From: Holophagales bacterium
Lineage (GTDB): Bacteria; Acidobacteriota; Thermoanaerobaculia; Multivoradales; Multivoraceae
DNA length: 64,000 bases
Assembly (NCBI GenBank): GCA_009845425.1
Contig: VXZQ01000012.1
Location: 186,001 to 250,000 of the forward strand
Direction: 5' to 3'
The number at the start of each line of letters is the position of its first letter. Positions within the stretch are counted from its first letter, which is position 1. The notes beneath the pieces are model-generated. The model was not told where the DNA came from and did not search any database. It saw only the letters and a list, made by a program, of their open reading frames with translations. Of this stretch, positions 38,646 to 64,000 are shown in pieces. Both the position numbers and the translations under genes were made by a program.

Positions 38646-38651
38646 CCCTGT

Positions 38652-43109: not shown

Positions 43110-43120
43110 CGTTCCGCTCC

Positions 43121-48116: not shown

Positions 48117-49888
48117 TGTCGGCTCTCTCCCTGGCGGACTTCATGGTAGGCGTGTGGCGGCAGCGCGCCGAAGGACTCGCCGGCGCCGCCGCGCCAGTCG
48201 ACGCGGATGTCTTCGACCTCCGCGAACCCGAGCCCGACAAGCACCCTCGGATCGCTTGACGAGGCGTAGCTCATCGCCGCGCGGACCCGGCGCGTGATCG
48301 TCCGGCCGTCGGTGAGTCGCACCCGGACCAGGCTTCCGACGGCGTCTCGCTTGCCGTCCGAAGTGACCAGGCGGAGGCCGATCCAGCCGCTGTCCTGGCC
48401 GATCAGATTGAGCAGCAGCCGCGCCGGTCCGTTGTTGTTCGTGATGAGAACGTCGGTGTCTCCGTCGTTGTCGACGTCGCCGAAGGCGGCTCCACGGGAG
48501 ACCTCATAGGCCGCGAAGGCCGGTCCTCCGAGCGAGGACGCGTCTTCGAAGCGGCCGTCGCCCAGGTTGCGGAAGAGCTGGTTCGGTTGACCGAAGCGGC
48601 GCTCGTGGTCGCTGCCTGCTGCCGCGCGCGCGGCTGCCGCGTCGCCTGAGCGGGCGCGATCCAGGCGGCGCACCGCGCCGTTCACCGCCAGCAGGTCGAG
48701 GTCGCCGTCGTTGTCGAAGTCGATCCAGCCGGTGCCGAAACCGGTCATCGGCAGGCTGGGCGTATCCAGGCCGGCGGGCATGCCGGCATCCGTGAACAGG
48801 CCACCGCCGTCGTTCAGGTAGAGGGTGCTCGTCTCGCCCGTGATGTGGGTCACGTAGAGATCCTCGTCGCCGTCCCCGTCCAGGTCCCCGGCGTCGACAC
48901 CCATGCCCGCCTCGGCCTCGCCGCGGCGATTGACCGCCGAGCCGCCGAACAGGGCCCGGTTCTCGAAGCGGCCGCCACCGCGGTTCATCCACATCTGATT
49001 TGGTGTGCCGTCGTTGGCGACGTAGAGATCGAGCCTGCCGTCGAGGTCGAGGTCGGCCGGCACCGCACCGAGGCCGTTGCCGAACTGTGTGGCGAGGCCG
49101 GCGCGGTCCGTCGTCTGCTCGAACCGTCCGTCGCCGAGGTTGCGGAACAGGCGGTCCGGCTCGGCGCGGTAGGTCTTCGGGCTGCAGTAGTCCGGCTCGC
49201 CGCTGCCGAAGGTGCAGAGCGTGTGGCTGCCGAGATTGAAGTCGACGTAGTTGGCGACGAACAGGTCGAGCATGCCATCGCCGTCGTAGTCGAAGAAGGC
49301 GGCCGGAACGCTCCACCTGGGGTCGTCCGCTTCGGCGGTCTCCGTCACGTCCTCGTAGCGGCCGTTGCCGACGTTCCGCCAGAGCCGGTTGGGGCCCAGG
49401 TTGGTCACGTAGAGATCGACCCGGCCGTCCCCGTCGAAGTCCCCGGCAGCGACGCCCATGCCGTAGCCGGCCGACGAGAGGCCGGAGTCCTCCGTCGCGT
49501 CGACGAAGCGTAGTTCGCCGGTTTCGACCAGGTCGTTGCGAAACAGGCGGTCACGGGCGGGGGACCCGGCCGCGCCGGCGCCCGGCTCCAGCTCGCCTCC
49601 CTGGACCAGGTAGGCGTCGAGATCGCCGTCGCCGTCGGCGTCGAAGAGCGCCGCGCCCGAGCCCATGATCTCGGGCAGCAGGTAGCGGCCGCGGCCGCCG
49701 TTCCGGTGCTGGAAGGCGAGACCGACCTCGGCGGCTCGGTCGTGGAAGGCAGCGGGTTCCGTCAGGGGCGCCGGCGTGCGCGAAGTCACCGGCTCCTCGA
49801 CGCGGCCGATGCGTGGATCTCCGGCGCAGTTGAGCATCCCGGCCGTGCTGATCAGGACCGTGACGAGCGCGTGGGGTGTCGGCGGCAT
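48113..49888 (-). CDS. CRTAC1-type protein with FG-GAP/VCBS repeats and UnbV/ASPIC domain
   Basis: 591 residues. A signal sequence ends at a possible lipobox (MLNCAG). At least seven calcium-loop repeats of the FG-GAP/VCBS type are visible: DADGDGDLD, DFDGDGRVD, DYDGDGMLD, DLDLDGRLD, DLDGDGDED, DFDNDGDLD and DVDNDGDTD, each within a beta-propeller blade (LFRNLGDGRFE, LYVTNLGPNRLWRN). The C-terminus is the ASPIC/UnbV domain (WIGLRLVTSDGKRDAVGSLVRV, RVRAAMSYASSSDPRVLVGLG). Such proteins are extracellular, calcium-stabilised and of unknown role. It leads the two-gene unit with the TPR lipoprotein and starts about 100 bases after the receptor gene stop, beyond that gene's terminator hairpins. Confidence 0.9.
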   Translation of the reverse strand: MPPTPHALVTVLISTAGMLNCAGDPRIGRVEEPVTSRTPAPLTEPAAFHDRAAEVGLAFQHRNGGRGRYLLPEIMGSGAALFDADGDGDLDAYLVQGGELEPGAGAAGSPARDRLFRNDLVETGELRFVDATEDSGLSSAGYGMGVAAGDFDGDGRVDLYVTNLGPNRLWRNVGNGRYEDVTETAEADDPRWSVPAAFFDYDGDGMLDLFVANYVDFNLGSHTLCTFGSGEPDYCSPKTYRAEPDRLFRNLGDGRFEQTTDRAGLATQFGNGLGAVPADLDLDGRLDLYVANDGTPNQMWMNRGGGRFENRALFGGSAVNRRGEAEAGMGVDAGDLDGDGDEDLYVTHITGETSTLYLNDGGGLFTDAGMPAGLDTPSLPMTGFGTGWIDFDNDGDLDLLAVNGAVRRLDRARSGDAAAARAAAGSDHERRFGQPNQLFRNLGDGRFEDASSLGGPAFAAYEVSRGAAFGDVDNDGDTDVLITNNNGPARLLLNLIGQDSGWIGLRLVTSDGKRDAVGSLVRVRLTDGRTITRRVRAAMSYASSSDPRVLVGLGFAEVEDIRVDWRGGAGESFGALPPHAYHEVRQGESRQ

Positions 49889-49909: not shown

Positions 49910-49945
49910 GAACGAGAAAGGGGAGAGAGCCGAAGCCCTCTCCCC
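49910..49945 (-). terminator. UUCG-tetraloop terminator of receptor gene 1
   Basis: On the minus strand an 11-bp stem with left arm GGGGAGAGGGC is closed by TTCG (one G-T wobble), then followed by TTTCTCGTTC. The stem covers 49920-49945. The same structure recurs after the second receptor gene at 53807-53843, which supports function. Confidence 0.78.
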
Positions 49946-49955
49946 CTGATTCCCT

Positions 49956-49979
49956 GATCCGGTGACCGGTGTCCGGATC
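49956..49979 (-). terminator. Proximal hairpin after receptor gene 1
   Basis: Perfect 7-bp arms GATCCGG (49956-49962) and its complement (49973-49979) around a 10-base loop, 12 bases after the stop codon. It precedes the stronger UUCG hairpin; the second receptor gene also has two consecutive hairpins, though the proximal stems differ in sequence. Confidence 0.5.
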
Positions 49980-49991
49980 GTGTGATCTGGT

Positions 49992-52900
49992 CTAGAACCG
50001 GAGCTTGAAGTTGGCGCGAACCGTCCGCGGGCGCTGGAAGAACCGGCGCACAGGCAGAACCTCGCCGGCGCTGTTCCAGGAGCGGCGGCGCTGCTGGTTC
50101 GTCACGTTCAGCACCTCGACCCGGAGTTCCCCGCGGGTATTGCCGATGCCCAGGGGAAATCCCCAGGCGCCGCTCAGGTTGACCGTGTACTCGTCCGCGG
50201 TCCGGCGGCCCTCCGTGCCCGATGGGTGTAGGGGGAAACCGACGCCGGTGTTCGAGGTTCCGGGGCGCTGGTTGGCGTTCGCGTCCGTCACGTCCACCGG
50301 CAGGCAGATCGGAATCGATGTGGGGATGCCGGGCGGACGCGGTCCGCAGGGCCGCTCGTAGCCGGCGCCGGAGGATGTGGTCCAGGGCGTCCCGGTCTGG
50401 AAGGTCAGGTGGCCGCCCAGCGTCAGATCCTGGTTGCCCAGGCGCCAGGTCTTGAAGCCGAAGGAGTTCCAGATCCACTCGCGGTCGTAGGTGCCGTTGG
50501 CGCCACGCCGGTTGATCATGCTCGCCGGGTAGCCGAGCCAGTCCGTCAGACGGGCGACGCAGTCCTCCGGATAGAGCCGCGTCCTGCCGGTACGGCGGTC
50601 GGGTCTCGTCTGGGACGCCTGGCAACTGTCGATGTTCTGCTGGTTCAGAACGACGTGGGCCGCCTCGAGGTAGGTGCTGTTCGTGTTGTTCCACCAGGCG
50701 CCGGCGCCGGTCGTGTCCGTGCTGGCCCAGGCGAGGTTGTTGTAGAGCGCCCAGCCGTCCGCGAAGCGGCGGTTCAACTGAACCTGAACCCCCTTGAACG
50801 AGTTCTTCGCCGGATCGGCCCTCTCCAGGGCCTCCCGGTTCAGTTGGGCCGGCCGTTCCGCCGGGTCGTAGCCCTGCGCCGCCCAGGTCGCGGCCCGCGC
50901 GTCATCGAAGGCGACCAGGATGTCGAACAGGTCGTGGTAGTTCTCCGTGACGCCGATGTTCCGGCCCTTGTGGTCGAGCTGGTTGTTGGAGAACATCATG
51001 TCCTGCAACTGCCAGTCGATGTACTTGACGTCGAGAGCCCAGTTCGGCCGGAACTGCCACTCCAGGCCGAGAATCGCTTCCTGCTTGTAGTAGGTCTGCA
51101 CGTCATAGTCGAGGACGCCTGCCTGAACCGCGTCCCACATGAGACCCGGCGTCGTCAGCTCCCAGGACAGGTTGTAGCCGGGCAGCGGCGCGCCGACCGT
51201 TCCGTTGTGGAGCGAGTCCCTCCGCTGCGGAACCCGGCAGCCGTAGTTGGTCAAGCCGAGGAACTGCAGGAAGTCGAACGTCGCGATGTCCGCCGGGTCG
51301 CAGAAGAGGAAGACCTCGTGCCCTTCGTAGCCGTTCCACAGGTCGTGCATGCTGGGAACGTTCGAGTCGCCGCCCGAAATCCACGCCTGGTTCAGCATCG
51401 CGTGGTACTGGCCCCAGCTTGCGTTGAGCAGCAGGGCGCCGTCTCCCTTGATGTCATAGGTGATGTTCAGCCGCGGGTCGACGTAGCTGTCGTCGATGAC
51501 CTGGCGGCGAACGTCGTTCCAGGCTTCCTGGGTTTCGGCCCGAAGGCCCATGTTGACCGTCCAGTGATCGCCGATCGTGAAGCGGTCGCGGACGTAGAAG
51601 CCGATGTTGCGCACTTCGCTGTCGCCGGTGCCGCGCCCCACGCAAGTGCCGGGCGTGCGGACGACCTCGCCGTTCACGTGCTCGACCGTGGTCGGCCGGT
51701 GGGGCATGCCGTCGGGAGCGTTGCCCTCACAGGTCAGGAACGTCGAGTTGTGGTCGGTGAAGTAGCAGGTCCGACCACGAATGGCCGATGTACCGGTGCG
51801 GGTGAACGGCGTGGCGCAGGTGTCGTCTGCGATCGTGCCGGCGCCCAGGTAGCCGAACGGGTTCGTCGGGTCGAAGCCCCACCCCTGGAGCAGGGGCACG
51901 CGGGCATTCTCGCCCTCCCACTTCGTGTCCTGGTAGTCGAAACCGTACTTCAGCTCGTGGTTCGCGCCCGCGAACTGGGTCAGGCCGACGTTCGCCTGCT
52001 CGCGCGGGAACGCGTTGAAGCCGAAGCCGTCGGAGAGGATCCAGCCGTTGTGCCACGAGGAGAGGTTCTCGGCGTCCCGGTAGACGTTGTAGTTGTTGCC
52101 GGGGTAGAAGATGCCCAGGCTCGGGTCGAACGGGAAGCGCAGCGGGTAGCTGGTGTCGCCGCCCGACGTGTTCGTCGCCGTGTGGCCGGCGATCGGACCG
52201 CGGTCGAGCGACTTCGCCTGCAGGCAGGTCTCGATCATGCGCGCCGGCGTGTCGCGGTAGTTGTCCTGGGACAGCCACTCCAGGATCGGAATGCCGTCCA
52301 CGGACTGGGCGGCGGGGTTCTCCTGCTCCAGGATGTCGTGGCAGGCGAGGAACTTGTTCTCCTGCGTCTCCTGGTCGGCGATCTTCGCTTCGAGGAACCA
52401 ATTGCTGGAGATCGCGTAGTTCCAACTGACGGTCGAGAGCACGCTGTCGTTTTCGTGCGGCGTCGGCGTCCAGTAGTCGTAGGACTGCCAGTTGAAGTAG
52501 TTCCTGAACGCCGGCGTGTCGATCCAGGAGGCGGCGAAGGAGTGGGACGCCGACGGCTGCATGTTCAGCTTGAGGATGCGGGCGTCGGCGAACAGGCTGA
52601 CGTCGTACGGGTCGCCGCCGAGCAGGCGCTCGGAATAGGCGTCGTCGAACTCGGAAGCACCCACGAAGAACCAGAACTTGTCCCTCCGCAGAGGACCGCC
52701 GGTCGAGAACTCGTAGCCATCGCTGGAACCGGCCCACTCGTCGCTGCCGGGCAGGCAGGCGTCGCGATTGATCGTCGAGACCTCCTCGACGATGCTTGGC
52801 GGAATCTGGCCCCGGCCCTGGTCCCGTTGGTCTCCGTGGCAGCGCCTGAACCAGTCCACGGGGTACGGCCTGTTGCGGCGTTCCGCCAGCGAGGGCTGGT

Positions 52901-53672
52901 CCTTGTAGTCGGCGCTCCAGTCGACCCGCTGATGGTTCCAGAGGACATCCGCGTGCCAGCGGTTGGTGCCCGACTTGACGATCACGTTGGTGGAGGATCC
53001 GATGTAGCGGCCATACTCGGCGGAGGAGCCGCCGGCTTCCATCGACACCTCGGTGAGCGCCGTGGTGGGCAGGAAGACCCTGCTGCCGCCGAACTTGGCG
53101 AACGTCGTGTCGACCCCGTCGACGTAGACGCCCTGGTCGGCGAAGTGAGTGCCGTTGACTGACGGCCGCGTCTGCTGGATGTCGTCGTTCTCCGCGTCGG
53201 CGGTGACGCCCGGAAGGGCATTGATCACGCCGTAGTAGGTGCGGGTCGTACCGGCCGTCTGCTCGCCGATCTCGGACGTGACCGTGCTGCCGGCGGTGAC
53301 GTTGAACTTGTCGACCATGGGCGTTTCGGCGGTCACGTCGACGACGCCTCCTTCGACCGCGGCCTGCAGCGTCAGGTCGACGTCCCTGCGGTCGCCGGCT
53401 GCGGCGTGGAAGTTCGCCTGGGCCTCGCCCAGGCCCTCCAGCTCCGCGGTCAGTTCATAGCTGTCGGGAACGACTCCCACGAACCGGAACTGGCCGTTCT
53501 CATCCGTGATCGAGAACTTGTCGCCGCGTCCGCTGGAGAGGGTGACACTGACGCCGGGCAGGGGCGAGCCCCCCGGATCGACGACCGTGCCGCTGACCGT
53601 TGCGGTCTCCGGCGCGTCGGCGAAGGCGCCGACGGGGACGAGCAACGTCAGGATCAGTGCGAGTCGCTTCAT
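49992..53672 (-). CDS. Oar-like TonB-dependent receptor (copy 1)
   Basis: 1226 residues. Signal peptide MKRLALILTLLVPVGAFA; then a carboxypeptidase-regulatory-like Ig fold (ATVSGTVVDPGGSPLPGVSV to about residue 105); then the plug (TAETPMVDKFNVTAGSTV, RPSVNGTHFADQGVYVDG, VSMEAGGSSAEYGRYIGSST to about 240); then a very large beta-barrel ending in the outer-membrane Phe (RTVRANFKLRF). This is the layout of Oar/SusC-like receptors for large or complex ligands; no clear TonB box is visible. Fourteen cysteines lie in the barrel part, unusual for an outer-membrane protein, and all are matched in the paralogue. The leader has GAGGAGGAGCTC before the ATG and a strong promoter 50 bases upstream. The ligand is unknown; no SusD-like partner is present. 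Confidence 0.9.
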   Translation of the reverse strand: MKRLALILTLLVPVGAFADAPETATVSGTVVDPGGSPLPGVSVTLSSGRGDKFSITDENGQFRFVGVVPDSYELTAELEGLGEAQANFHAAAGDRRDVDLTLQAAVEGGVVDVTAETPMVDKFNVTAGSTVTSEIGEQTAGTTRTYYGVINALPGVTADAENDDIQQTRPSVNGTHFADQGVYVDGVDTTFAKFGGSRVFLPTTALTEVSMEAGGSSAEYGRYIGSSTNVIVKSGTNRWHADVLWNHQRVDWSADYKDQPSLAERRNRPYPVDWFRRCHGDQRDQGRGQIPPSIVEEVSTINRDACLPGSDEWAGSSDGYEFSTGGPLRRDKFWFFVGASEFDDAYSERLLGGDPYDVSLFADARILKLNMQPSASHSFAASWIDTPAFRNYFNWQSYDYWTPTPHENDSVLSTVSWNYAISSNWFLEAKIADQETQENKFLACHDILEQENPAAQSVDGIPILEWLSQDNYRDTPARMIETCLQAKSLDRGPIAGHTATNTSGGDTSYPLRFPFDPSLGIFYPGNNYNVYRDAENLSSWHNGWILSDGFGFNAFPREQANVGLTQFAGANHELKYGFDYQDTKWEGENARVPLLQGWGFDPTNPFGYLGAGTIADDTCATPFTRTGTSAIRGRTCYFTDHNSTFLTCEGNAPDGMPHRPTTVEHVNGEVVRTPGTCVGRGTGDSEVRNIGFYVRDRFTIGDHWTVNMGLRAETQEAWNDVRRQVIDDSYVDPRLNITYDIKGDGALLLNASWGQYHAMLNQAWISGGDSNVPSMHDLWNGYEGHEVFLFCDPADIATFDFLQFLGLTNYGCRVPQRRDSLHNGTVGAPLPGYNLSWELTTPGLMWDAVQAGVLDYDVQTYYKQEAILGLEWQFRPNWALDVKYIDWQLQDMMFSNNQLDHKGRNIGVTENYHDLFDILVAFDDARAATWAAQGYDPAERPAQLNREALERADPAKNSFKGVQVQLNRRFADGWALYNNLAWASTDTTGAGAWWNNTNSTYLEAAHVVLNQQNIDSCQASQTRPDRRTGRTRLYPEDCVARLTDWLGYPASMINRRGANGTYDREWIWNSFGFKTWRLGNQDLTLGGHLTFQTGTPWTTSSGAGYERPCGPRPPGIPTSIPICLPVDVTDANANQRPGTSNTGVGFPLHPSGTEGRRTADEYTVNLSGAWGFPLGIGNTRGELRVEVLNVTNQQRRRSWNSAGEVLPVRRFFQRPRTVRANFKLRF

Positions 53673-53720
53673 GAGCTCCTCCTCGGATCGAGGTTGTAGA
53701 GAAGGCTGAGTGCCAAAACC

Positions 53721-53748
53721 ACTATACGCCCGGCCGCGAGCGAGTCAA
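53721..53748 (-). promoter_or_regulatory. Sigma70-like promoter of receptor gene 1
   Basis: Minus strand: TTGACT (53748-53743), 16-base spacer, TATAGT (53726-53721), predicting a start near 53714 and a leader of about 42 bases. The second receptor gene has the same pair with the same spacing, and the boxes are conserved while the spacer is not. Confidence 0.78.
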
Positions 53749-53763
53749 AGAAGGGCGAGATGG

Positions 53764-53779
53764 ATCCAGAATGTTGGAT
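53764..53779. promoter_or_regulatory. Palindrome ATCCA-N6-TGGAT upstream of receptor promoter 1
   Basis: Arms ATCCA (53764-53768) and TGGAT (53775-53779) around six bases, ending 15 bases upstream of the -35 box. A longer version (GATCCA-N6-TGGATC) occurs upstream of the second receptor promoter. Conservation between the copies suggests a regulator site; the protein is unknown. Confidence 0.45.
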
Positions 53780-53806
53780 GGCCGCCGCCGTACGCTCGTT
53801 TGCCGC

Positions 53807-53843
53807 GGAAAGAGAAAGGGGAGAGAGCCGAAGCCCTCTCCCC
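53807..53843 (-). terminator. UUCG-tetraloop terminator of receptor gene 2
   Basis: Same 11-bp stem and TTCG loop as at 49920-49945 (stem 53818-53843), followed on the minus strand by TTTCTCTTTCC. It isolates the second receptor gene from the promoter of the first. Confidence 0.78.
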
Positions 53844-53855
53844 TCGATTTCCCTG

Positions 53856-53879
53856 AACCGGGGGCCGAAGCCCCAGGTT
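53856..53879 (-). terminator. Proximal UUCG hairpin after receptor gene 2
   Basis: Arms AACC-G-GGGGC (53856-53865) and its near-complement (53870-53879) around CGAA on the plus strand, i.e. a TTCG loop in the transcript, with one G-A mismatch. It lies 13 bases after the stop and makes a double-hairpin terminator with the distal one. Confidence 0.55.
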
Positions 53880-53892
53880 CTGTCGTTCCGGC

Positions 53893-56800
53893 CTAGAACC
53901 GGAACTTGATGTTGGCGCGGATCGTCCGCGGGCGCTGGAAGAACCGGCGCACCGGGTAGACCTCGCCACGACCGTCCCAATCGCGACGGCGCTGCTGGTT
54001 GGTCGCGTTCAGGACCTCGACCCGGAGTTCGCCACGAACGTCCCGGTAGCCCATGGGGAAGCCCCATGCGCCGCTCAGGTTGACCGTGTACTCATCCGCG
54101 GTCCGATGTCCCTCGGCGCCAGCCGGGAACAGGCGCACGCCGATGCCCGAGTTGGCCGTGCCCGGCCGTGCGTCGCTCGTCGGATCGGAGGGAGTGATCG
54201 GCGGACAGGTCCGCAGCCCCGAAGGCCTGGCGCCCGGGGCGCAGGTCTTCGCGGCGCCGACGCCGGCGCCTTCCGACCGGTACCAGGGGGTGCCGGTCTG
54301 GAAGGTCAGGTGACCACCCAGCGTCAGATCCTGGTTACCGATCCGCCAGGTCTTGAACCCGAAGGAGTTGTAGATCCAGGTGCGGTCGTACACGTGGTTC
54401 GGGCCGCGCTGGTTGATCATGCTGCCCGGCAAGCCGATGAAGTTGCTCAGCCGCGCATAGCAGTCCTCGGGATACGTCCTCGTCCTGCCGGTGCGGCGAT
54501 CAGGTTCCGTCTGGCTTTCCTGGCAGTCCTCGATGTGGCCCTCGCCGAGGTTCACGTGAGCGAGTTCCAGGTAGCCGCTGTCCGTGTTGTTCCACCAGAC
54601 GCCTCCGCCCGTGGTGTCCGTCTCGGACCAGGCCACGTTGTTGTAGAGCGCCCAGCCGTCCGCGAACCGCCGGTTCAACTGGACCTGCAGACCCCGGTAG
54701 GAGTTCTTCGCCGGATCCGCGTTGGCCAGGGCCTCGCGGTTGACGGCGCTCGTGCGGTCGGCTTCATCGAAGCCTGCCGCCGCCCACCTGTCCCTTCTCG
54801 CGTCGTCGAACGCGAGAACGATCTTCTCCAGGTCGTGGTAGTTCTCCGTGATGCCGATGTTGCGGCCCCGGTAATCGAGCTGGAAGTTGGAGAACATCAT
54901 GTCCTGCAACTGCCAGTCGATGTACTTGACATCCAGCGCCCAGTCCGGGCGGAACTGCCACTCGAGGCCGATGATCGCCTCCTGCTTGTAGTAGGTCTGG
55001 ATGTCGAAGTCGTAGTAGCCCTCCTGGACCGCGTCCCACATGAGGCCGGGCTGTGCCAGCTCCCAGGACAGGTTGTAGCCGGGGATTCCCTCGCCTACCG
55101 TGCCGTTGCGGATCGTGTCGCGCCGCGACGGGTGGTTGCAGTCGTAGCTGACGTACCCGATCGACCTCAGGAGGTTCATCCCGAAGATGTCACCAGGATC
55201 GCAGAAGAGGAAGACCTCGCGGCCTTCGTACCCGTTCCACAGATCGTGCATGCTGGGACGGGCCACGTCGCCGCCGGAGATCCACGCCTGGTTGAGCATC
55301 GCGTGGTACTGGCCCCAGGTTGCGTTGAGCAGCAGGGCGCCGTCCCCCTTGATGTCGTAGGCGATGTTGATCCGCGGGTCGACGTAGGTGTCGTCCACGA
55401 CCTGGCGCCGGACGTCGTTCCAGGCCTCCTGAACTTCCGCCCGGATGCCGAGGTTGATCACCCAGTGGTCGCCGATCGTGAAGCGGTCACGGGCGAAGAA
55501 GCCGACGTTGCGGACCTCCGTGTCGCCGCTGCCGCGGCCGACGCAGGTGCCGATCGTGCGGACGATCTCGCCGTTGACCCGCTCGATCTGTGTCGGCCGG
55601 TGCGGCAGTCCGTCCGTGTGGTTGCCCTCGCAGGTCAGGAGCGGTGAGTTGTAGTCGACGAAGTAGCAGCCGCGGCCTCGCGTCGTCGCTCCCAGGAAGT
55701 TCGGGTTCTCAGGCGACGTGCTGTAGCCCCGCAAGAGGGAGCACGCATCGTCCTCCATCGTTCCAGCCTGGTAGTACCCGAACGGGTTGGTGGCGTCGAA
55801 GCCCCAGCCGTTGAACAGCGGCACGCGGGCGTTCTCACCCTCCCACTTCGTGTCCTGGTAGTCCAGGCCGTACTTCAACTCGTGATTGGCGCCGATGAAC
55901 TGGGTCAGACCGACGTTCGCCTGCTCGCGCGGGAACGCGTTGAAGCCGAAGCCGTCGGAGAGGATCCAGCCGTTGTGCCAGGCCTGCAGGTTCTCGTTGT
56001 CCCGGTACACGTTGTAGTTGTTTCCGGGATAGAAGATGCCCAGGGACGGGATGAACGGGAACCGCAGCGGGTAGCTGGTGTCGCCGCCCGAGGTGTTCGT
56101 TGCGCTGTGACCGGCGATCGGGCCACGGTCGAGCGACTTGGCCTGCAGGCAGGTCTCCACCATGCGCGCCGAGGCGTTGGGGAAGTTGTCCTGGGCAAGC
56201 CACTCGAGGATCGGAATGCCGTCGACGTTCAGGACCTCGGGATTCTCCTGCTCCAGCTTGTTGTAGCAGGCGAGGTACTTGTTCTCCTGGGTTTCCTGGA
56301 AGGCGACTTTCGCCTCCAGGTACCAGTTGCTCGTGACGGCGTAGTTCCAGTTGACCGTCGACAGCACGCTGTCGTTCTCGTGCGGCGTCGGCGTCCAGTA
56401 GTCCGATGACGGAATGTGGAAGTAGTTCCGGAACGCCGGCGTATCGATAGCCGAGGCGGCGAACGAATGGCTCGCGGTCGGCTGCATGTTCAGCTTGAAG
56501 ATGCGCGCGTCGTTGAACAGGCTGATGTCGTACGGGTCGCCGCCGATCAGCCGCTCTGAGTACGCGTCGTCGAACTCGCTGACGCCGAGGAAGAACCAGA
56601 ACCTGTCGCGCTGGATCGGGCCGCCGGCCGAAAACTCGTAGCCGTCGGAAGCGCCGGCCCACTCGTCGCTGCCGGGCAGACAGGGCTCGCGGTTCGTCGT
56701 GAACAGCTCCGAACTCAGGTCGCCGGCGGGGATCTTCCCGCGGCCGGCGTCCCGCTCGTCGCCGTGGCAACGCCGGAACCAGTCGACCGGATACGGCTTG

Positions 56801-57597
56801 TTCTGCCGTTGGTCGAGGGCCGGCTGGTCCTTGTAGTCGGCGCCCCAGTCGATCGCCTGGCGCTGCCAGAGCGCGTCGACGTGCCACCGGTTCGTGCCCG
56901 ACTTGACGATCACGTTGGTCGAGGAGCCGATGTAGCGGCCGTACTCGGCGGAGGAGCCGCCGGCCTCCATCGAAACCTCGGTCACTGCCGTGGTGGGCAG
57001 GAAGACCCGGCTGCCGCCGAACTTGGCGAACGTGGTGTCGACACCGTCGATGTAGACGCCCTGATCCGCGAAGTGCGTGCCGTTGACGGACGGCCGCGTC
57101 TGCTGGATGTCGTCGTTCTCCGCGTCGGCGGTGACGCCTGGCAGAGCGTTGATGACACCGTAGTAGGTCCGCGTCGTGCCGGCGGTCTGTTCGCCGATCT
57201 CGGATGTGACTGTGCTGCCCGCGGTGACGTTGAACTTGTCGACCATGGGCGTTTCGCCGGTGACGGTCACCTCACCCTCGATGGCGGCCTGCAGGGTCAG
57301 GTCGAGATCCTGCCGGTCGCCGGCGGCGGCGTGGAACTCGGCCGCCGCCTCGCCCAAACCTTGGAGTTCCGCCTTCAGGTTGTAGGCGCCGGGCACGACG
57401 CCGACGAACCGGAACTGGCCGTTCTCGTCCGTGATCGCGAACTTGTCGCCACGCTCACTGGACAGGGTGACACTGACGCCTGGAAGCGCGGAGCCTCCCG
57501 GGTCAACGATCGTGCCGCTGACGGTTGCCGTCTCCGGTGCGTCGGCAAAAGCGCCGAACGGGACCAGCAACATCAGGACCACTGCGAGTCGCTTCAT
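53893..57597 (-). CDS. Oar-like TonB-dependent receptor (copy 2)
   Basis: 1234 residues from ATG 57597, which begins MKRLAVVLMLLVPFGAFA and aligns with the paralogue start; the open frame extends 15 codons further up but into the leader. Domains are as in copy 1: signal peptide, regulatory-like Ig fold, plug (GETPMVDKFNVTAGSTV) and a large barrel ending RTIRANIKFRF. Long blocks are identical to copy 1 (for example IGLEWQFRPDWALDVKYID with one change, RRFADGWALYNN). Divergent blocks are loop-like, e.g. around DDACSLLRGY, FGMNLLRSIGYVSYDC and KTCAPGARPSGLRTC. All 14 cysteines occur at matching places. The two receptors probably take up related but different ligands. Confidence 0.9.
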   Translation of the reverse strand: MKRLAVVLMLLVPFGAFADAPETATVSGTIVDPGGSALPGVSVTLSSERGDKFAITDENGQFRFVGVVPGAYNLKAELQGLGEAAAEFHAAAGDRQDLDLTLQAAIEGEVTVTGETPMVDKFNVTAGSTVTSEIGEQTAGTTRTYYGVINALPGVTADAENDDIQQTRPSVNGTHFADQGVYIDGVDTTFAKFGGSRVFLPTTAVTEVSMEAGGSSAEYGRYIGSSTNVIVKSGTNRWHVDALWQRQAIDWGADYKDQPALDQRQNKPYPVDWFRRCHGDERDAGRGKIPAGDLSSELFTTNREPCLPGSDEWAGASDGYEFSAGGPIQRDRFWFFLGVSEFDDAYSERLIGGDPYDISLFNDARIFKLNMQPTASHSFAASAIDTPAFRNYFHIPSSDYWTPTPHENDSVLSTVNWNYAVTSNWYLEAKVAFQETQENKYLACYNKLEQENPEVLNVDGIPILEWLAQDNFPNASARMVETCLQAKSLDRGPIAGHSATNTSGGDTSYPLRFPFIPSLGIFYPGNNYNVYRDNENLQAWHNGWILSDGFGFNAFPREQANVGLTQFIGANHELKYGLDYQDTKWEGENARVPLFNGWGFDATNPFGYYQAGTMEDDACSLLRGYSTSPENPNFLGATTRGRGCYFVDYNSPLLTCEGNHTDGLPHRPTQIERVNGEIVRTIGTCVGRGSGDTEVRNVGFFARDRFTIGDHWVINLGIRAEVQEAWNDVRRQVVDDTYVDPRINIAYDIKGDGALLLNATWGQYHAMLNQAWISGGDVARPSMHDLWNGYEGREVFLFCDPGDIFGMNLLRSIGYVSYDCNHPSRRDTIRNGTVGEGIPGYNLSWELAQPGLMWDAVQEGYYDFDIQTYYKQEAIIGLEWQFRPDWALDVKYIDWQLQDMMFSNFQLDYRGRNIGITENYHDLEKIVLAFDDARRDRWAAAGFDEADRTSAVNREALANADPAKNSYRGLQVQLNRRFADGWALYNNVAWSETDTTGGGVWWNNTDSGYLELAHVNLGEGHIEDCQESQTEPDRRTGRTRTYPEDCYARLSNFIGLPGSMINQRGPNHVYDRTWIYNSFGFKTWRIGNQDLTLGGHLTFQTGTPWYRSEGAGVGAAKTCAPGARPSGLRTCPPITPSDPTSDARPGTANSGIGVRLFPAGAEGHRTADEYTVNLSGAWGFPMGYRDVRGELRVEVLNATNQQRRRDWDGRGEVYPVRRFFQRPRTIRANIKFRF

Positions 57598-57640
57598 AGA
57601 GCTTCTCCTCGGATCAAGTTGTAGGGAAAGCGAGAGCGGC

Positions 57641-57668
57641 ACTATATGACGGGCTGGACGGATGTCAA
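57641..57668 (-). promoter_or_regulatory. Sigma70-like promoter of receptor gene 2
   Basis: Minus strand: a perfect -35 TTGACA (57668-57663), 16-base spacer, -10 TATAGT (57646-57641). The start would be near 57634, giving a leader of about 37 bases with GAGGAGAAGCTCT before ATG 57597. Confidence 0.8.
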
Positions 57669-57702
57669 GGACGAGGCGGACTAGGCTTGAAACGGTGTAG
57701 CA

Positions 57703-57720
57703 GATCCAGATCGTTGGATC
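57703..57720. promoter_or_regulatory. Palindrome GATCCA-N6-TGGATC upstream of receptor promoter 2
   Basis: Perfect 6-bp arms at 57703-57708 and 57715-57720. It lies 34 bases upstream of the -35 box, against 15 bases in the other copy. Candidate site for a shared transcriptional regulator. Confidence 0.45.
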
Positions 57721-57771
57721 GGACTCGCGTAGTCGGCGGTGAGGCGGCCGTGCGAGCGCACGCCGTCTCTA

Positions 57772-57811
57772 CGGCTCACGCGCCAGCGGCACGAGCCGCG
57801 AGGCGCGGATC
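57772..57811 (-). pseudogene. Remnant of a vapC-like gene (40-bp direct repeat)
   Basis: These 40 bases are identical to 58590-58629, the 3-prime part of the intact vapC gene, and on the minus strand encode the same tail (IRASRLVPLAREP). Sequence on both sides differs. It is the end of a lost toxin gene or the trace of a duplication spanning the coiled-coil gene; the rest of the 57669-57848 stretch shows no gene. Confidence 0.6.
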
Positions 57812-57848
57812 TGTCAGGTGCGGTCCGAGCCCGGCTCCGACGCGACGG

Positions 57849-58397
57849 TCAGCGTTGGGCGAGCTGCAGGGCGATGCCGATGATGCCGCCGAGCATCGGC
57901 ACCATCAGGGCGAAGAGGCCGCCGAGGATCCACTTGACCATACGGAGTTCGCCCCTGAGTCCGTCGATCTGGCCTTGCATGCCGTTCAACTGGCCGCGCA
58001 TCCCGTCCAACTGACCGGAGATCTCCTGACGGAAGCTCTCGAAACGCTCCCTGACCTCCTGACGGAGCGCTTCCATCGCCCGCTCCAGGCCCTCGATGCG
58101 TGTCGTGTTGTTCGCCACGGTAGCCGTGAGATGGCTGAGTTCTTCCCGGACCTCGGCGATGTCGTGCTTGAGTTCCGTCCGGACTTCGACCAGGTCGTCC
58201 TTCGTCGCTAGTCTCTCTTCCCGGCTGGTGATCATGTCGACGAGCGCCTCCGTCTGGTTCGCCCTGAAGCCGGCTCTCTCAAGCCGACGTCTCGTCCGCC
58301 GAGCGCTTGACTCTACCGTGTGTCCACCCATGAATCTGCTCCCGTCGTCGTCGTTGAGTTCGTTGAGGGCCGGCATGGTCACGCCTCGGTTCGCCAT
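57849..58397 (-). CDS. Coiled-coil protein with C-terminal membrane helix (DUF1640-like)
   Basis: 182 residues. An N-terminal segment RAGFRANQTEALVDMI followed by LATKDDLVEVRTELKHDIAEV is reminiscent of DUF1640-type proteins. A long coiled coil of Glu/Arg/Leu heptads (about 60-150), with repeated QLDGMRGQLNGMQGQIDGL units, leads to one hydrophobic helix (WILGGLFALMVPMLGGIIGIAL) close to the C-terminus. ATG 58397 is taken; ATG 58376 is also possible. Such small tail-anchored coiled-coil proteins often sit near toxin-antitoxin genes and mobile DNA, but have no assigned function. The 183 bases between this gene and vapC contain nothing I can identify. Confidence 0.7.
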   Translation of the reverse strand: MANRGVTMPALNELNDDDGSRFMGGHTVESSARRTRRRLERAGFRANQTEALVDMITSREERLATKDDLVEVRTELKHDIAEVREELSHLTATVANNTTRIEGLERAMEALRQEVRERFESFRQEISGQLDGMRGQLNGMQGQIDGLRGELRMVKWILGGLFALMVPMLGGIIGIALQLAQR

Positions 58398-58580
58398 TAC
58401 GTCGCCGGCCTGGCGACCCGGCCCGCGCAGCTGACGCCCGCAAGGAAGATGTGCCGGTGTGGCAGCTTCCTTACCGACATGGACGGATTCGTCGCGGGAA
58501 CTTCAGCGTCAACGGCAAGGACAGGCAGCCCAGGCGCTGGTTGAGCGTCCCCGGACTGGGCGAGAAGGTTCTCGGCGATC

Positions 58581-58955
58581 TCAGCGCCGCGGCTCACGCG
58601 CCAGCGGCACGAGCCGCGAGGCGCGGATCGTCCTGTCCCGCGTAAGCAGCGGCACCTGCTCGACGATGCTGGTTGCCGCGATCAACTCGTCGGCCGGGTC
58701 GCCCCGGAAGTCGAGTTCGCAGCTCGCGTGGCAGATGGCAGGCGTCAAGGGCCACACTCGAATCTGCCGCAGGACTCTCCCGATCCTTGCATCTTCGAGG
58801 TCGAACTCGATGCGTCCAAGCTGCGCTAGCCTGGCGATCTCCCAGAGCACGATGGGCGAGATGCCCCACTCGTTCGCGGCCAGAATCCGGCGTTCCGCAG
58901 GCGCCAGGGCATCCTCGAGGCTGTGGATCAGGATGTGGGTGTCAAGATTCAGCAT
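58581..58955 (-). CDS. vapC: PIN-domain toxin, VapC type
   Basis: 124 residues. The PIN-domain acidic residues are present: Asp in MLNLDTHI, Glu in SPIVLWEIARL, Asp in DPADELIAATSI, and Asp in LLTRDRTIR, so the ribonuclease site looks intact. VapC toxins cleave specific RNAs, often tRNA or rRNA, when freed from the antitoxin. The start overlaps the antitoxin gene by 14 bases, the usual arrangement. The last part of the gene (58590-58629) is duplicated at 57772-57811. The closest branch is the one with a Phd/YefM-type partner. Confidence 0.9.
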   Translation of the reverse strand: MLNLDTHILIHSLEDALAPAERRILAANEWGISPIVLWEIARLAQLGRIEFDLEDARIGRVLRQIRVWPLTPAICHASCELDFRGDPADELIAATSIVEQVPLLTRDRTIRASRLVPLAREPRR

Positions 58956-59163
58956 CCCACCTGACGCCCGTGCTCATGATGTCTCCGTGAACGCGGATTC
59001 TGCCCTTGAGACTGCCGATCAGGTGCTCCGACGTTCGCGCCACCGGGATCAGCTTGGCCACGGGACGCCCGTGCTTGGTGATCACCACGCCATCCGCGTC
59101 GACCTGGTCGAGAATGGCCAGACACTTCTCCTTGAACTGGGCGGCTGCGATGGTCCGGGTCAT
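58942..59163 (-). CDS. Phd/YefM-type antitoxin of the VapC-like toxin
   Basis: 73 residues from ATG 59163; an in-frame start 36 bases upstream falls between the promoter and the ribosome site and adds an atypical N-terminus. The N-terminal DNA-binding domain of the Phd/YefM fold is evident (TRTIAAAQFKEKCLAILDQV, then DGVVITKHGRPVAKLIPV), followed by a C-terminal toxin-binding tail (LKGRIRVHGDIMSTGVRWDAES). In this family it neutralises the toxin and represses its own operon. A palindrome lies over the promoter upstream. Confidence 0.9.
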   Translation of the reverse strand: MTRTIAAAQFKEKCLAILDQVDADGVVITKHGRPVAKLIPVARTSEHLIGSLKGRIRVHGDIMSTGVRWDAES

Positions 59164-59214
59164 CTGGATGTCCTTTCTTGGCGCGCTTCGCGTCCTCACT
59201 CCAAGAGGGGACAG

Positions 59215-59243
59215 ATGATACGGCCGGACACTGTTTGTGTCCA
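59215..59243 (-). promoter_or_regulatory. Promoter and operator-like palindrome of the toxin-antitoxin operon
   Basis: Minus strand: TGGACA (59243-59238), 17-base spacer, TATCAT (59220-59215); start near 59208, leader about 45 bases. A perfect inverted repeat GGACAC-N5-GTGTCC (59226-59242) covers the -35 and most of the spacer, the expected place for autorepression by the antitoxin. Confidence 0.65.
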
Positions 59244-59313
59244 GAGGCTTGGGCGCGGCGTTTGGGAAGGTGCGGGTGGCTGGTTGCCGGCCAGCGACGG
59301 GCGTACTCCGTGC

Positions 59314-62037
59314 CTACTCGGGCGTCGGCTCAAGGGTGACAGTGACGGGAACCTCCTCCGGACCCGGATCAAGTTCGAACTCCGCACCCAACCGGTGCTC
59401 GGCGACCCAGAGCGAAACGGTGTAGGCGCCCGGAGTCAAGCAGCCGAGGCCCACCCGGCCGTCCTCCGAGAAGGTCGTACCGGGAAGTGCTCCGGGCAGG
59501 TGATGGGCGACCTTGACGCCTGCTTCAGTGGTCACTCTGACGAGGGAGAGGGTTTCGCCCGCACAACTTCGGTCCAAGCACCGGAGCTCCAGCAGGCGAC
59601 CCAATGGCAAGGTGCGCTTCAACCGTGCTGTCCGCGCGGCCTCGACCGTCACCTTGTCGGCACCCACACAGGCGCCACCATGATTCCAGAGGACCGTGAC
59701 CTCTCCTGGTGGTACGTTGTCGGCTCGGAGAACGCCGTCCTCGGCGACGATGCCTGCCGCGGCCAAGGTCTCGTCGGGACCCAGGACGTGAATCCATGCA
59801 CCGACCATCGGACCATCAGGTGTTGCGAGCCGGACTTCCACCTCGCCGAGTGCTTCCTCGTCCACCTGGAGAGCCTGGAAGGGAGGGTGTAGGTCCGCCT
59901 TCAGAGTGAGCTCGGTGTGGGCAAGGCCCGCTCCGGTGTCGGCCTGTAGCCGATAGTGGCCCGGCGGCGCAGGGGGCAGGGTGAAGTACCCATTCTCTGC
60001 CGTGGAGGTGCCGGCGACTTCGAGACCCAGATCGCCGATCAGTGCGACGTGGGCCTGCTTGAGGGTGTGGCCTGCTGCCGGTCGCAGTTCGCCGCTGACT
60101 ACGGAAGTCCCGCCCAACTCGAACTGGGAAAGCGGCCGATCGGGCCAGATCCTGCCGACACGGCTTCGACCGTTTGCCGCGACCCACGTCATCCACAAGA
60201 ACTCGTCTGGCGCTCCTTTCACCGTGAACGAGCCGTCCGCTGCCACCCTGGATTGGCGCAGAAACGCCTGGCCGGGCCGCAACGTCGTCGAGTGTGTGAC
60301 GGTGTCGCCTTGTTGGACATTGATCTGGAGGAGCCCGACGCCTGCCCGCGAGCCTGGAACCCGCTCGAAACCGACAAGACCCCCATTCACCGGAACGCCG
60401 CCCAGCGTCAGGATGCTCCGGATGGTGCGGTTCCGGTACGCGAGGTCCACTTCGATGCGGTCGGCTGGGTCGTAGGCGTCGACCCGAATCTCCTTCGACA
60501 CGAGGAGTGAGTCAGAGGAATTCCGGATGTCGATCCGGTAACGACCGGATGCTAGCTGGACCACCGCGAACGAGGATGGGTCTCGGTTCCCTCTGCCTGT
60601 CGGTTGGAGATTGGCCGTTGCCAGAGGCGCTTCCATCTCACGAAAACGGTCCATCACGCGCACAGTGCCATGGGTTACTCCGTGCGCTCTCACGAGAACG
60701 GTGCGCGGCGCGAGCATCCATATCTCCCCGAGGTCGGCACGCTCTGAGCCGTCGAGGGCAATGAGCCGTGCGGTAGGCGGCCCTATCCTGCACTCCGTAC
60801 GTAGGTAGTAGCGGCCCTCGCTCAGTCCGCCAAGGAGGAAGCCGCCGTGGCCGTCTGAGACGGTGATGTCCTGTCTGCCTTGCAGGCGATACTGAAGGTG
60901 TGCGTTACCGGACGGCAGAAGCTCCAGTACGCACCCAGCGATGGGCTCGGCGCCGCCAGCGGCGAACAGCCGTCCGGTCACGACAGCGCCCGGTTCCAGA
61001 TACACGACGCCGAGATCCACGACGCGCCCGGGACTCGGGGTTAGGCCGTAGGCGCCTGACAGGAGGTGGTTTTCCGCCTGGAAGTGGATCTGCACGAGAT
61101 CGGCTTGCCCAACGTCCCCGGGAATCGGGACGACCACGGGGGACGTCCCCTGATCGACCTCCCTAGCGAATGTTGAGTGGGACCGGGCTCGCTTGATCAA
61201 GACCCGCATCGTGAAGCGATCCACGGGAACCCCAGCGGCGGAAAGCACCTGCACCCGGACGCCGCCCGGACTGGTCTGGCGGACAGTCGCCTCATCGCCG
61301 GTCGCCTCTGCGGGCAGGCTGAGGAGGATCGGTTGGTCTGGCCAGGGCGAGCCGCCGATGTCTCTCGCGGCCCGGCCATGACCCTCAGCCTCGGCCACGA
61401 CCTCGGCTTCAGGAAAGGTGGACAAACCGCTCACGACAAACCGACCGTCGTTGCCGGTGTCGGCGCATCGGCGCACAGCGTCGGTGGGGAACGGCGCGTT
61501 CTCGTCTCTCCAACGTACACAGACAGTAGCTCGTGCGGCCTCTCGGCCATCGGAAAAGAAGACCCGTCCCTTTAGAGACCGTCCTGGTCCGAGCCGGATT
61601 GTCGCCGGCATCCGACCGTCGTCGAAAGTGCCGATGAACCTCTCGTACCGGGGATGATCGACGACGAGTGTCATTCCGCGAACGCTCGGGAGCCCACGCT
61701 CCATCGCACCGTTATTGGTGGTTCGTGTCCGAATCAGGAGCGCGCCGTGAGGAAGCGGCGCGTCTGCCGGTGGCGCTCGGAGTACCTGGACGACCGCGCC
61801 CTCGATACCGCCACCTTCGCCGTCCACGACCAAAATGGGCGCCGCGTCAGGAGGGGAGTCCTGCGAGAACGCCGCGCCGAGCGGGACGGCGCTTGCAAGC
61901 GCTCCGGCGGCCAGCAGCAACCTCGAACCGCGAACCGGACGACCTTCGTGTTGGGACGGCAGACCAGCCTGCACGCTTCTCGTTGCTCTCACTCTCGAAA
62001 GTCGAGCCAAGAGAGGGACGGTCTTGGGGTTGCGCAC
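59314..62037 (-). CDS. Large secreted protein with carboxypeptidase-regulatory-like beta domains
   Basis: Up to 907 residues from GTG 62037; GTG codons at residues 17 and 22 are alternative starts. A hydrophobic signal segment (LLLAAGALASAVPLGAAFSQ) lies at about residues 40-59, late for a signal peptide, so a start nearer to it is likely. The rest is a string of beta-sandwich units resembling carboxypeptidase regulatory-like (peptidase M14 associated) domains: GRSLKGRVFFSDGREAARATV, GAVVTGRLFAAGGAEPIAGC, SVVSGELRPAAGHTLKQAHV, with closing YxLxxx segments (GRYYLRTECRI, GHYRLQADTGAG). There is no catalytic motif, lipobox or membrane helix. It is probably an extracellular binding or structural protein of unknown role. 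The 218 bases upstream hold no gene. Confidence 0.68.
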   Translation of the reverse strand: MRNPKTVPLLARLSRVRATRSVQAGLPSQHEGRPVRGSRLLLAAGALASAVPLGAAFSQDSPPDAAPILVVDGEGGGIEGAVVQVLRAPPADAPLPHGALLIRTRTTNNGAMERGLPSVRGMTLVVDHPRYERFIGTFDDGRMPATIRLGPGRSLKGRVFFSDGREAARATVCVRWRDENAPFPTDAVRRCADTGNDGRFVVSGLSTFPEAEVVAEAEGHGRAARDIGGSPWPDQPILLSLPAEATGDEATVRQTSPGGVRVQVLSAAGVPVDRFTMRVLIKRARSHSTFAREVDQGTSPVVVPIPGDVGQADLVQIHFQAENHLLSGAYGLTPSPGRVVDLGVVYLEPGAVVTGRLFAAGGAEPIAGCVLELLPSGNAHLQYRLQGRQDITVSDGHGGFLLGGLSEGRYYLRTECRIGPPTARLIALDGSERADLGEIWMLAPRTVLVRAHGVTHGTVRVMDRFREMEAPLATANLQPTGRGNRDPSSFAVVQLASGRYRIDIRNSSDSLLVSKEIRVDAYDPADRIEVDLAYRNRTIRSILTLGGVPVNGGLVGFERVPGSRAGVGLLQINVQQGDTVTHSTTLRPGQAFLRQSRVAADGSFTVKGAPDEFLWMTWVAANGRSRVGRIWPDRPLSQFELGGTSVVSGELRPAAGHTLKQAHVALIGDLGLEVAGTSTAENGYFTLPPAPPGHYRLQADTGAGLAHTELTLKADLHPPFQALQVDEEALGEVEVRLATPDGPMVGAWIHVLGPDETLAAAGIVAEDGVLRADNVPPGEVTVLWNHGGACVGADKVTVEAARTARLKRTLPLGRLLELRCLDRSCAGETLSLVRVTTEAGVKVAHHLPGALPGTTFSEDGRVGLGCLTPGAYTVSLWVAEHRLGAEFELDPGPEEVPVTVTLEPTPE

Positions 62038-62255
62038 GAGTCCGTTGGCGCTTTCGGCGCGACCGAGGGTCGCGGCACGCGACCGGGCGTCCTCAGCTTC
62101 GGTGCGGGAGGTTCTCTACCCGCTTTCGGTGCTGATTGGCACGAGGCGCAAGCCGAAGACAACCGGTCACCGAAGGAACCAACGCGCCGTCAAGGAGACG
62201 TTCCAGCGGTGGACCCACCCACCAGAACAATCACGTCGGGGGCCCCCTTGAACCA

Positions 62256-62645
62256 TCAACCCCGGCAGATGGCCTGAGCTTCCTCAACGGAGGACGCACC
62301 GAGCATGAGAAGGCCCAAGTCGATCTGAGCTTGATCTCCCCTCTGTAGTCCTTTACCGAGTGTTGCGCACGCGACCTCGTTGCCAGAGGGAGTGACTCCA
62401 TTCGGGGTGGGGTCCCTGTCGCGGACGGGCATTGGTTCCCATGGGTCTTCGAACGGCGCAGGAGGGCAGGGAATGGGCGTCACTGTGGTGGTGGACGTGG
62501 CGTTCCCATTCGCATCCCATGTAATGGTGGTGGTGACAAGGTAGCAGGCGCCAGTAGCGAGCGCGGGCGAACTGAAGAGCAGAAGAACTACTCCCAGAAG
62601 GAGTAGTACCACGGTTTTGCGAGCGAACCTGACAGTCCCGATCAT
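62256..62645 (-). CDS. Small secreted protein of unknown function
   Basis: 129 residues. A clear signal peptide (TVVLLLLGVVLLLFSSPALA) is followed by a Thr-rich segment (YLVTTTITWDANGNATSTTT) with two Cys that could pair, a Pro-rich stretch (PCPPAPFEDPWEPMPVRDRD), and a C-terminal helical part with two more Cys (NEVACATLGKG, EEAQAICRG). I do not recognise the family. The SD AAAGGAG is ten bases before ATG 62645 and a promoter-like pair lies upstream, so expression is likely. It ends 218 bases before the large beta-domain gene and might share its transcript. Confidence 0.6.
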   Translation of the reverse strand: MIGTVRFARKTVVLLLLGVVLLLFSSPALATGACYLVTTTITWDANGNATSTTTVTPIPCPPAPFEDPWEPMPVRDRDPTPNGVTPSGNEVACATLGKGLQRGDQAQIDLGLLMLGASSVEEAQAICRG

Positions 62646-62692
62646 TGCCTACGGGCTCCTTTCGGCGAACTGTGGAAGAGAGAAGTGGCCTA

Positions 62693-62722
62693 AGCCTAGG
62701 ACGCCGGCCGAGAAGGTGTCAA
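62693..62722 (-). promoter_or_regulatory. Candidate promoter of the small secreted protein gene
   Basis: Minus strand: perfect -35 TTGACA (62722-62717), 18-base spacer, weak -10 TAGGCT (62698-62693). The start would be near 62686, giving a 41-base leader similar in length to those of the receptor genes. Confidence 0.45.
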
Positions 62723-62828
62723 GTGACTGTAGTGGCCCAGTACCTATGAGACTCGGAGGTCATCAAGCCGCTGTGGACTGGAGATACTGGAGTTGCCCCG
62801 TTTTCGTGGACGGTTCGTGTTTAGGGGA

Positions 62829-63677
62829 TCAAGCGGCGTGGGCGTAGCTCTTCTCGAAGTTGGCGGGTGAGCGGTAACCGAGACCAGAATGCCGCCGATG
62901 CGTGTTGTACCAGCCCTCAATGTAGCGGAAGAGCTCGGCCCTGGCTTCGGCGTGGTTGCGGAAGCTGGACTGGTCGAGCAGCTCGCATTCGAGGCTGGCG
63001 AAGAAGCTCTCGGCCATGGCGTTGTCGTAGCAGTCTCCGACGGAGCCCATCGAGAGCGCGATGCCGGCTTCGCGGCAGCGCTTCCCGAAGGTCAGGGAAG
63101 TGTACTGACTGCCTTGACCGGAGTGGTGGATGACGTCGTCGGGCCGGCGCTGGGCGATCGCCATCTGAAGCGCGGCGACCACGAGGTCGGTTGCCAGAGA
63201 AGAGTCCATGGCCCAGCCGACGATGCGCCGACTGAACACGTCGAGGACGATCGCCAGGTACAGGAAGCCGGCGAGGATCGGCACGTAGGTTATGTCGGCG
63301 ACCCAAAGCCGGTCGGGACCGTCGGCGGTGAACTCCCGTTCGACGAGGTCCGGCGCCGGGCGGGCCTCCGGGCTGCGACGCGTCGTCGTCGGCCGTTTGC
63401 GGCGGCTGATGCCCGCCAGACCGGCCTCTCGCATCAGTCTGGCGAGCCGCTTGCGGCTCACTGGGAAGCCCTGGTCGGCCAGCTCAGCCCGGATCCTCGG
63501 CGCTCCGTAGGTCCCCCGGCTCCGCTCCCAGATCGCCCGCACCCGCTCCACGAGAGCGCTGTCCGCCTTCTCTCTCGCCGACCGCTCTCGCTTCAGCCAG
63601 GCGCAGTACCCGCTCGTGGAGACGCCGAGCACGCGCGCCATGGTCGCAATGCGGAACTCGGCCCGGTGCGCTCTCAT
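62829..63677 (-). CDS. IS3-family transposase OrfB with a mutated active site
   Basis: 282 residues. The HTH_21 region ([22 protein letters not shown]) and the rve integrase core are intact in length: D128 in [12 protein letters not shown]223 in [17 protein letters not shown], and C-terminal [19 protein letters not shown]. The second catalytic Asp is missing: the expected HSDQGSQY reads HSGQGSQY with Gly at 187 (GGT in place of GAT). The spacing D-x58-G-x35-E confirms that this is the DDE position. The enzyme is predicted inactive. Its ATG overlaps the end of the shifted OrfA frame (ATGA). Confidence 0.93.
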
Positions 63678-63983
63678 GAACCGGAAGACCCCTTCCGGTC
63701 CGTCTCCCGAGCGAACCAGGCCGTGGCTTTTGCCAGGATCTCCCGCTCCTCGCGCAGCCTGCGGACCTCACGCCGCAGCCGGCGCAACTCCTCACGCTCC
63801 GCCGTCGTCGTGCCGTCGCTCCGGCGTCCCTCCGTCGCGATCCGCCTGCCGGACCCAGTTGCGGATCGACTGCGCTGAAGGCTCGAACTCGCGGGCTAGA
63901 TGGTCCGGGCTACGCCCGGACCGGACCAGATCCACCATCTGCTGCCGGTACTCTGCCGGGTACCGGCTCCTCTTTCTCGACAT
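63674..63983 (-). pseudogene. IS3-family OrfA with a one-base frameshift
   Basis: The frame begins MSRKRSRYPAEYRQQMVDLV with a helix-turn-helix ([20 protein letters not shown]) and stops early at 63792 after 63 residues. The expected continuation, [20 protein letters not shown] and its leucine-zipper-like helix ending KGSSGS, is found in the neighbouring frame and ends at 63674, overlapping OrfB. The total of 310 bases is 103 codons plus one, so one extra base was gained, most simply in the CCC run at 63828-63830 (plus strand). It is not at the usual A-rich frameshift site between OrfA and OrfB. Confidence 0.8.
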
Positions 63984-64000
63984 CGTGGGTACCTCCTCCT

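Follow-up and report, generated by a model that had tools for sequence, protein, structure and literature searches.

The two receptor genes studied here belong to an old tandem array of Oar-like receptor units, each with its own terminator and probably under common regulation, whose extracellular loops have become specialised. We give this reading a probability of about 0.78. The window, the whole stretch of 64,000 nt that was analysed (G000:C15:186001-250000 of a 4.3-Mb genome), holds two of the units, c1 and c2. A first-pass annotation of the sequence had described a tandem duplication of a complete unit with promoter, gene and terminator. Our analysis bears this out and adds a third copy, c3, beyond the window. 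The array order is c3-c2-c1, so that the window contains two thirds of a triplet.

Two complete receptor units in the window

The c1 and c2 genes are intact, neighbouring open reading frames on the minus strand, and both encode Oar-like TonB-dependent receptors. They share 77% amino acid identity and 79% nucleotide identity. In both units we locate the elements that had been reported for them, namely a palindrome, a TTGACA/T-N16-TATAGT promoter, a Shine-Dalgarno leader and a double hairpin (Table 1). The GTG at 57642 given by the ORF lister as the start of c2 falls within the c2 promoter, and we place the start at the ATG at 57597.

The N-terminal extension of both proteins matches PF13620 (CarboxypepD_reg), with 60.1 bits in c1 and 56.5 bits in c2 at a cut-off of 32.3. 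The plug domain PF07715 scores 24.0 bits in c1 against a cut-off of 23.9, and 23.4 bits in c2, slightly under it; the plug region is 92% identical between the two. Profile searches matched the CarboxypepD_reg and plug signatures in both proteins and the outer-membrane barrel signature in c1. A VDVTAETP stretch lies upstream of the plug in c1 and is a candidate TonB box. A sequence search for solved-structure relatives of the receptors returned none.

Table 1. Features of the two receptor units, in window coordinates
Feature	Coordinates	Strand	Description
c1, Oar-like TonB-dependent receptor	49992..53672	-	1226 aa; ORF, Pfam PF13620, PF07715, PF25183
c1 protein layout			signal peptide, CarboxypepD_reg 25-103, plug 137-222, 22-strand barrel and 11 extracellular loops (model)
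c2, paralogous receptor	53893..57597	-	1234 aa; start codon preceded by Shine-Dalgarno, leader conserved in orthologs
c1 predicted intrinsic-terminator hairpin	49920..49945	-	GGGGAGAGGGCTTCGGCTCTCTCCCC, UUCG loop; TTTCTC follows
c1 second, upstream hairpin	49956..49979	-	GATCCGG..CCGGATC; weaker, sequence not conserved (sequence, alignment)
c2 predicted intrinsic-terminator hairpin	53818..53843	-	GGGGAGAGGGCTTCGGCTCTCTCCCC, identical to that of c1
c2 second, upstream hairpin	53855..53880	-	GAACCTGGGGC-UUCG-GCCCCCGGTTC
c1 leader with Shine-Dalgarno	53673..53695	-	GATCCGAGGAGGAGCTC; near-identical among c1 and c2 copies of the genus
c2 leader with Shine-Dalgarno	57598..57620	-	GATCCGAGGAGAAGCTCT; near-identical among c1 and c2 copies of the genus
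c1 predicted promoter	53721..53748	-	TTGACT-N16-TATAGT; from sequence, conserved in c1 orthologs
c2 predicted promoter	57641..57668	-	TTGACA-N16-TATAGT; from sequence, conserved in c2 orthologs
c1 operator-like palindrome	53763..53779	-	ATCCAACATTCTGGATC; centre 23 bp from -35 box
c2 operator-like palindrome	57703..57719	-	ATCCAACGATCTGGATC; centre 43 bp from -35 box
c2-c3 insertion, start	57740..64000		about 7.5 kb; coiled-coil ORF, PIN gene, 907-aa ORF, IS3-type transposase

Extent, age and turnover of the array

The third receptor copy, c3, has 70% amino acid identity and locates at G000:C15:251401-255021, corresponding to about 65.4-69.0 kb in window coordinates. It stands 7.5 kb beyond c2, behind an IS3/PIN-gene insertion; in several congeners the c2-c3 spacer is merely about 240 bp. 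As c3 shows, findings on a tandem pair can reach past the edge of a window.

The tandem arrangement recurs in related genomes. Array members are present in 20 of 20 congeners, at 2 to 4 copies each, and nowhere else in the order among the 60 relatives searched; most of the congeners keep the three-unit array. Among named records, the genus is represented by uncultured Thermoanaerobaculia, Holophagales or Acidobacteria MAGs, including Candidatus Multivorans thiocomprendens, and the genomes presumably come from marine sponges.

In a gene tree with outgroups, the array clade and each of c1, c2 and c3 are monophyletic with a support of 1.0. Within the array, c1 and c2 are sisters (support 0.90), and c2p, found in three genomes, is a later split within c2. 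Sister genera contain dispersed relatives only, at approximately 33-56% identity. Since the three classes form separate clades and the sister genera hold only dispersed relatives, the array goes back to two old tandem duplication events in the stem lineage of the genus. The common clade shows that the two genes did not arrive separately, and their non-coding elements are specifically conserved rather than of uniformly low identity.

The copies are not equally stable. The genomes of G004, G006, G016 and G017 contain no c1 at all, and those of G001, G002 and G009 have an interrupted one, which indicates that the role of c1 is dispensable. G019 lacks c2, and in G015 this copy has decayed. Loss of c3 was never seen in the congeners examined where the locus is complete. 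In G006, G017 and G004, c2- or c2p-type sequence stands to the left of the terminator hairpin and the usual post-c1 flank to its right, indicating that units come and go whole.

The breaks in c1 are independent events: an in-frame TAG at codon 598 in G009 (L067), and frameshifts near codons 360 and 140 in G002 (L074) and G001 (L079), respectively. Judged by the kinds and positions of the breaks, phase variation of c1 was rejected. The interruptions in G010 and G012 coincide with runs of N, and the others are this TAG codon and frameshifts at different places.

Divergence of the modelled extracellular loops

With close relatives only as input, the AlphaFold2 model of c1 had a pLDDT of 29. When distant homologs were added, the pLDDT rose to 75 with a pTM of 0.77. 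This model shows a 22-stranded barrel with 11 long extracellular loops, and the PDB fold matches listed for it are TonB-dependent receptors. Strands and loop boundaries were assigned by hand from the secondary structure of the model.

The fixed divergence between c1 and c2 is focused on these modelled loops. Among the 1266 aligned columns, 150 carry fixed differences; 132 of them fall in the 11 loops (701 columns) and 18 elsewhere (565 columns). The odds ratio is 7.0 with p = 1e-19, a value that measures concentration and not the number of events, because alignment columns are not independent of shared ancestry. Within either class, conservation of the loops is 94-100% (about 96%), as high as in the strands. 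Loops that are fixed within each class and differ between classes indicate specialised receptors, not variable ones. The earlier suggestion of receptors with different loops is thus supported at the level of the model. Based on the modelled loops, the copies were most likely kept to capture different targets, and their ligand specificities would differ accordingly.

One could argue instead that the copies are functionally equivalent and kept only for gene dosage, that is, for more receptor. The same promoter, leader and operator type in c1 and c2 fits this explanation, as does the variation from 2 to 4 copies among congeners. However, the 150 class-specific differences, mostly in loops, do not. 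Furthermore, the c1/c2 paralogs show dN 0.166 and dS 0.568, compared with dN 0.036 and dS 0.401 for the c1 orthologs of G000 and G014, so that the paralog dN/dS is about three times the ortholog value. We therefore regard dosage as an unlikely reason for the retention of the copies.

Recombination between the copies

The first-pass annotation had also raised the possibility that the duplication serves as a substrate for recombination that swaps loops. On this explanation, barrels or loops would be exchanged through the near-identical flanks and N-terminal regions and give rise to surface variants. There are long exact c1/c2 matches within the gene, of up to 71 nt, and whole-unit changes in copy number in G004, G006 and G017 have their junction at the shared terminator or close to it. 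Moreover, one mosaic occurs among 45 copies, the c2 of G001 (L078:428-4096). Its promoter and first 450 nt or so are ordinary c2, and the remainder is a deep-branching c2-like barrel. Barrel replacement can happen.

As a general mechanism, however, loop swapping finds little room in the data. c1 and c2 of the same genome have a mean identity of 0.7925, as against 0.7901 for c1 and c2 of different genomes; at third positions the two values are 0.688 and 0.686. The c1/c3 and c2/c3 pairs likewise show the same identity within as between genomes. When sliding 300-nt windows were compared across all within-genome pairs, none stood out, and we rejected ongoing gene conversion or loop swapping as a candidate. 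Paralogs that are no more similar within a genome than between genomes show that there is no ongoing conversion. A variable surface protein would show the opposite of what we observe, namely loops conserved like strands within c1 and c2 and no excess similarity within genomes. We consider this explanation about as improbable as that of dosage.

The terminator hairpin

The 26-nt hairpin pattern has three occurrences in the 4.3-Mb genome, each downstream of an array receptor gene. Across the 21 genomes of the genus, all 37 of 37 matches lie within the array. Since the pattern is confined to sites downstream of array genes, its placement is not due to chance. In the 13 variants of the hairpin, 99.3% of stem cells stay paired, including changes from G-U to A-U and G-C, and the loop changes are mostly of the UNCG type. 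The fold z-scores range from -3.9 to -5.2. A GC-rich hairpin, a compensated stem and a U tract, here a short one, are the marks of an intrinsic terminator. As such, the hairpins would insulate each unit from its neighbours. An Rfam search gave no match above the gathering score.

Before a conserved terminator is taken as special, it has to be compared with a control. The groEL terminator, compared in ten congeners, is about as conserved and its flanks are likewise diverged, which means that the conservation of the array terminator is ordinary and that strong terminators simply evolve slowly here. The idea that the hairpin is a dedicated RNA or DNA signal (a protein or sRNA target, or a recombination site) rather than a plain terminator could draw on its confinement to the array and on its 94.5% identity between paralogs of different genomes, against 41.5% in the preceding 20 nt, but the groEL control and the fact that the hairpin is not the longest match common to the units make it the least probable of the alternatives.

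Two further candidates were rejected. Concerted evolution of the terminator is not apparent, as core identity is 0.949 within genomes versus 0.945 (permutation P 0.18). Nor is the hairpin a preferred recombination junction by the measure of the longest shared match of the units, yet several unit losses have their junction there.

Promoter-proximal palindrome and regulation

An 18-bp palindrome, GATCCAAC-NN-TCTGGATC, lies upstream of nearly all c1 and c2 copies in the genus. It is missing where the upstream DNA is new, as in c2p of G013, c2 of G016 and c1 of G015. Exact matches in the 21 genomes are all within the array. In c2 and c3 its centre lies 42-44 bp from the -35 box; in c1 and c2p the spacing is 21-24 bp, except for c1 of G007 and G014, where it is 13 bp. 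In c3, a second, weaker site is found 63 bp from the -35 box and 20 bp from the first site. The spacings differ from one another by close to whole turns of the helix (P = 0.002 with six class values, 0.04 with four distinct values), a phasing that rests on few independent spacer changes.

The spacing of the palindrome suggests a dimeric activator. As the palindrome is common to the units and sits at near-integral helical turns from the -35 box, common rather than separate control is suggested. Separate control of the two receptors, as had been proposed, is doubtful, for the same palindrome and promoter type in c1 and c2 point to parallel, common control. A single regulator probably controls the units in parallel through the palindrome, which would face the same side of the helix relative to the promoter. 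On the other hand, TATAGT is missing from c3 and its palindrome is degenerate, so the common control may not extend to this copy. A bolder version would have a dedicated activator act on all array units through the array-specific 18-bp palindrome at integral helical turns from the promoter. In this version c3, which has a pair of degenerate sites spaced by exactly 20 bp and lacks a consensus -10, would make the array a graded regulon of one locus. We put this forward tentatively and lean somewhat against it.

A model for receptor specialisation

For the old array of specialised units, we propose the following course. The ancestor would have been one Oar-type TonB-dependent receptor gene that already carried a terminator, a leader, a promoter and an operator-like palindrome. 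This unit would have been duplicated in tandem twice on the genus stem: the first event set c3 apart from the common ancestor of c1 and c2, and the second parted c1 and c2. The plug and the N-terminal domain, which serve the same energising machinery, would have remained alike, while the extracellular loops grew apart and then became fixed. Most likely, the ligand of each receptor is a different one, either large or scarce. Every unit would be transcribed alone, insulated by its hairpin terminator, and a common regulator reading the shared palindrome would control the copies in parallel.

Duplicated and diverging transporters are already known, and the array clearly exemplifies an evolutionary process of an ordinary kind. 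Its special value is a clean genus-wide record, in which the changed parts (loops) are separate from the unchanged parts (plug, promoter, terminator). The approximately 20 congeners with two to four units form a well-resolved natural series of receptor specialisation. The model leads to precise predictions on the ligands of individual loops and on the regulator that reads the helically phased site.

Comparison with known receptors

Oar of Myxococcus xanthus has an N-terminal PF13620 extension, a PF07715 plug and a barrel predicted to contain 22 strands; it is encoded by a single gene and needed for secretion of the protease PopC (PMC6434023). c1 and c2 share this architecture. In contrast to the single oar gene, they belong to a three-member tandem array and have long loops. 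A part in protein secretion is not known to be shared by the Oar subclass of TonB-dependent transporters in general.

The receptors resemble SusC/RagA proteins in fold and in the CarboxypepD_reg-type N-terminal domain, and SusC structures are among the fold matches. However, TIGR04056, the sole NCBIfam match, scores 19 bits in c1 against a cut-off of 368.25 and has no match in c2. No SusD partner gene was found among the array neighbours scanned. The best PDB fold matches are the ferredoxin receptor FusA (E = 7e-30) and siderophore receptors. These are shorter and only about 10% identical to the array receptor, and no ligand can be inferred from the match.

Among Acidobacteria, Candidatus Solibacter contains many paralogs from old small-scale duplications (PMC3174227). 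The duplications are likewise old, but those paralogs are divergent and their gene order is not conserved (PMC3174227), whereas order and unit structure are conserved throughout the genus here.

Insertion and neighbourhood of the array

The c2-c3 insertion contains an IS3-type transposase (rve, HTH_21; window 62829-63677) and a second integrase-core ORF (G000:C15:249896-251059). We also notice a perfect 40-nt direct repeat at window positions 57772-57811 and 58590-58629. Its second copy is contained in the 3' end of a PIN-domain gene (58581-58955) and its first sits just upstream of the c2 palindrome, which means that part of this gene has been duplicated beside the array. In G016 (L077) and G018 (L064), which are not sister species, the DNA downstream of c3, beside the coiled-coil insertion, is near-identical, suggesting a recent transfer between species.

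UnbV/ASPIC-FG-GAP and TPR genes border the array on both sides, and this neighbourhood is conserved in congeners. The two UnbV/ASPIC FG-GAP/TPR pairs (window 46380-49888 and G000:C15:255219-259260) are about 31% related to each other. Downstream of the array, a PSCyt1/PSCyt2/PSD1 gene is followed by a DUF1501 gene (window 41631-45445). At 35607-41621 of the window, two adjoining long genes with VWA domains share 32% identity across about 490 aa and form another, older tandem pair.
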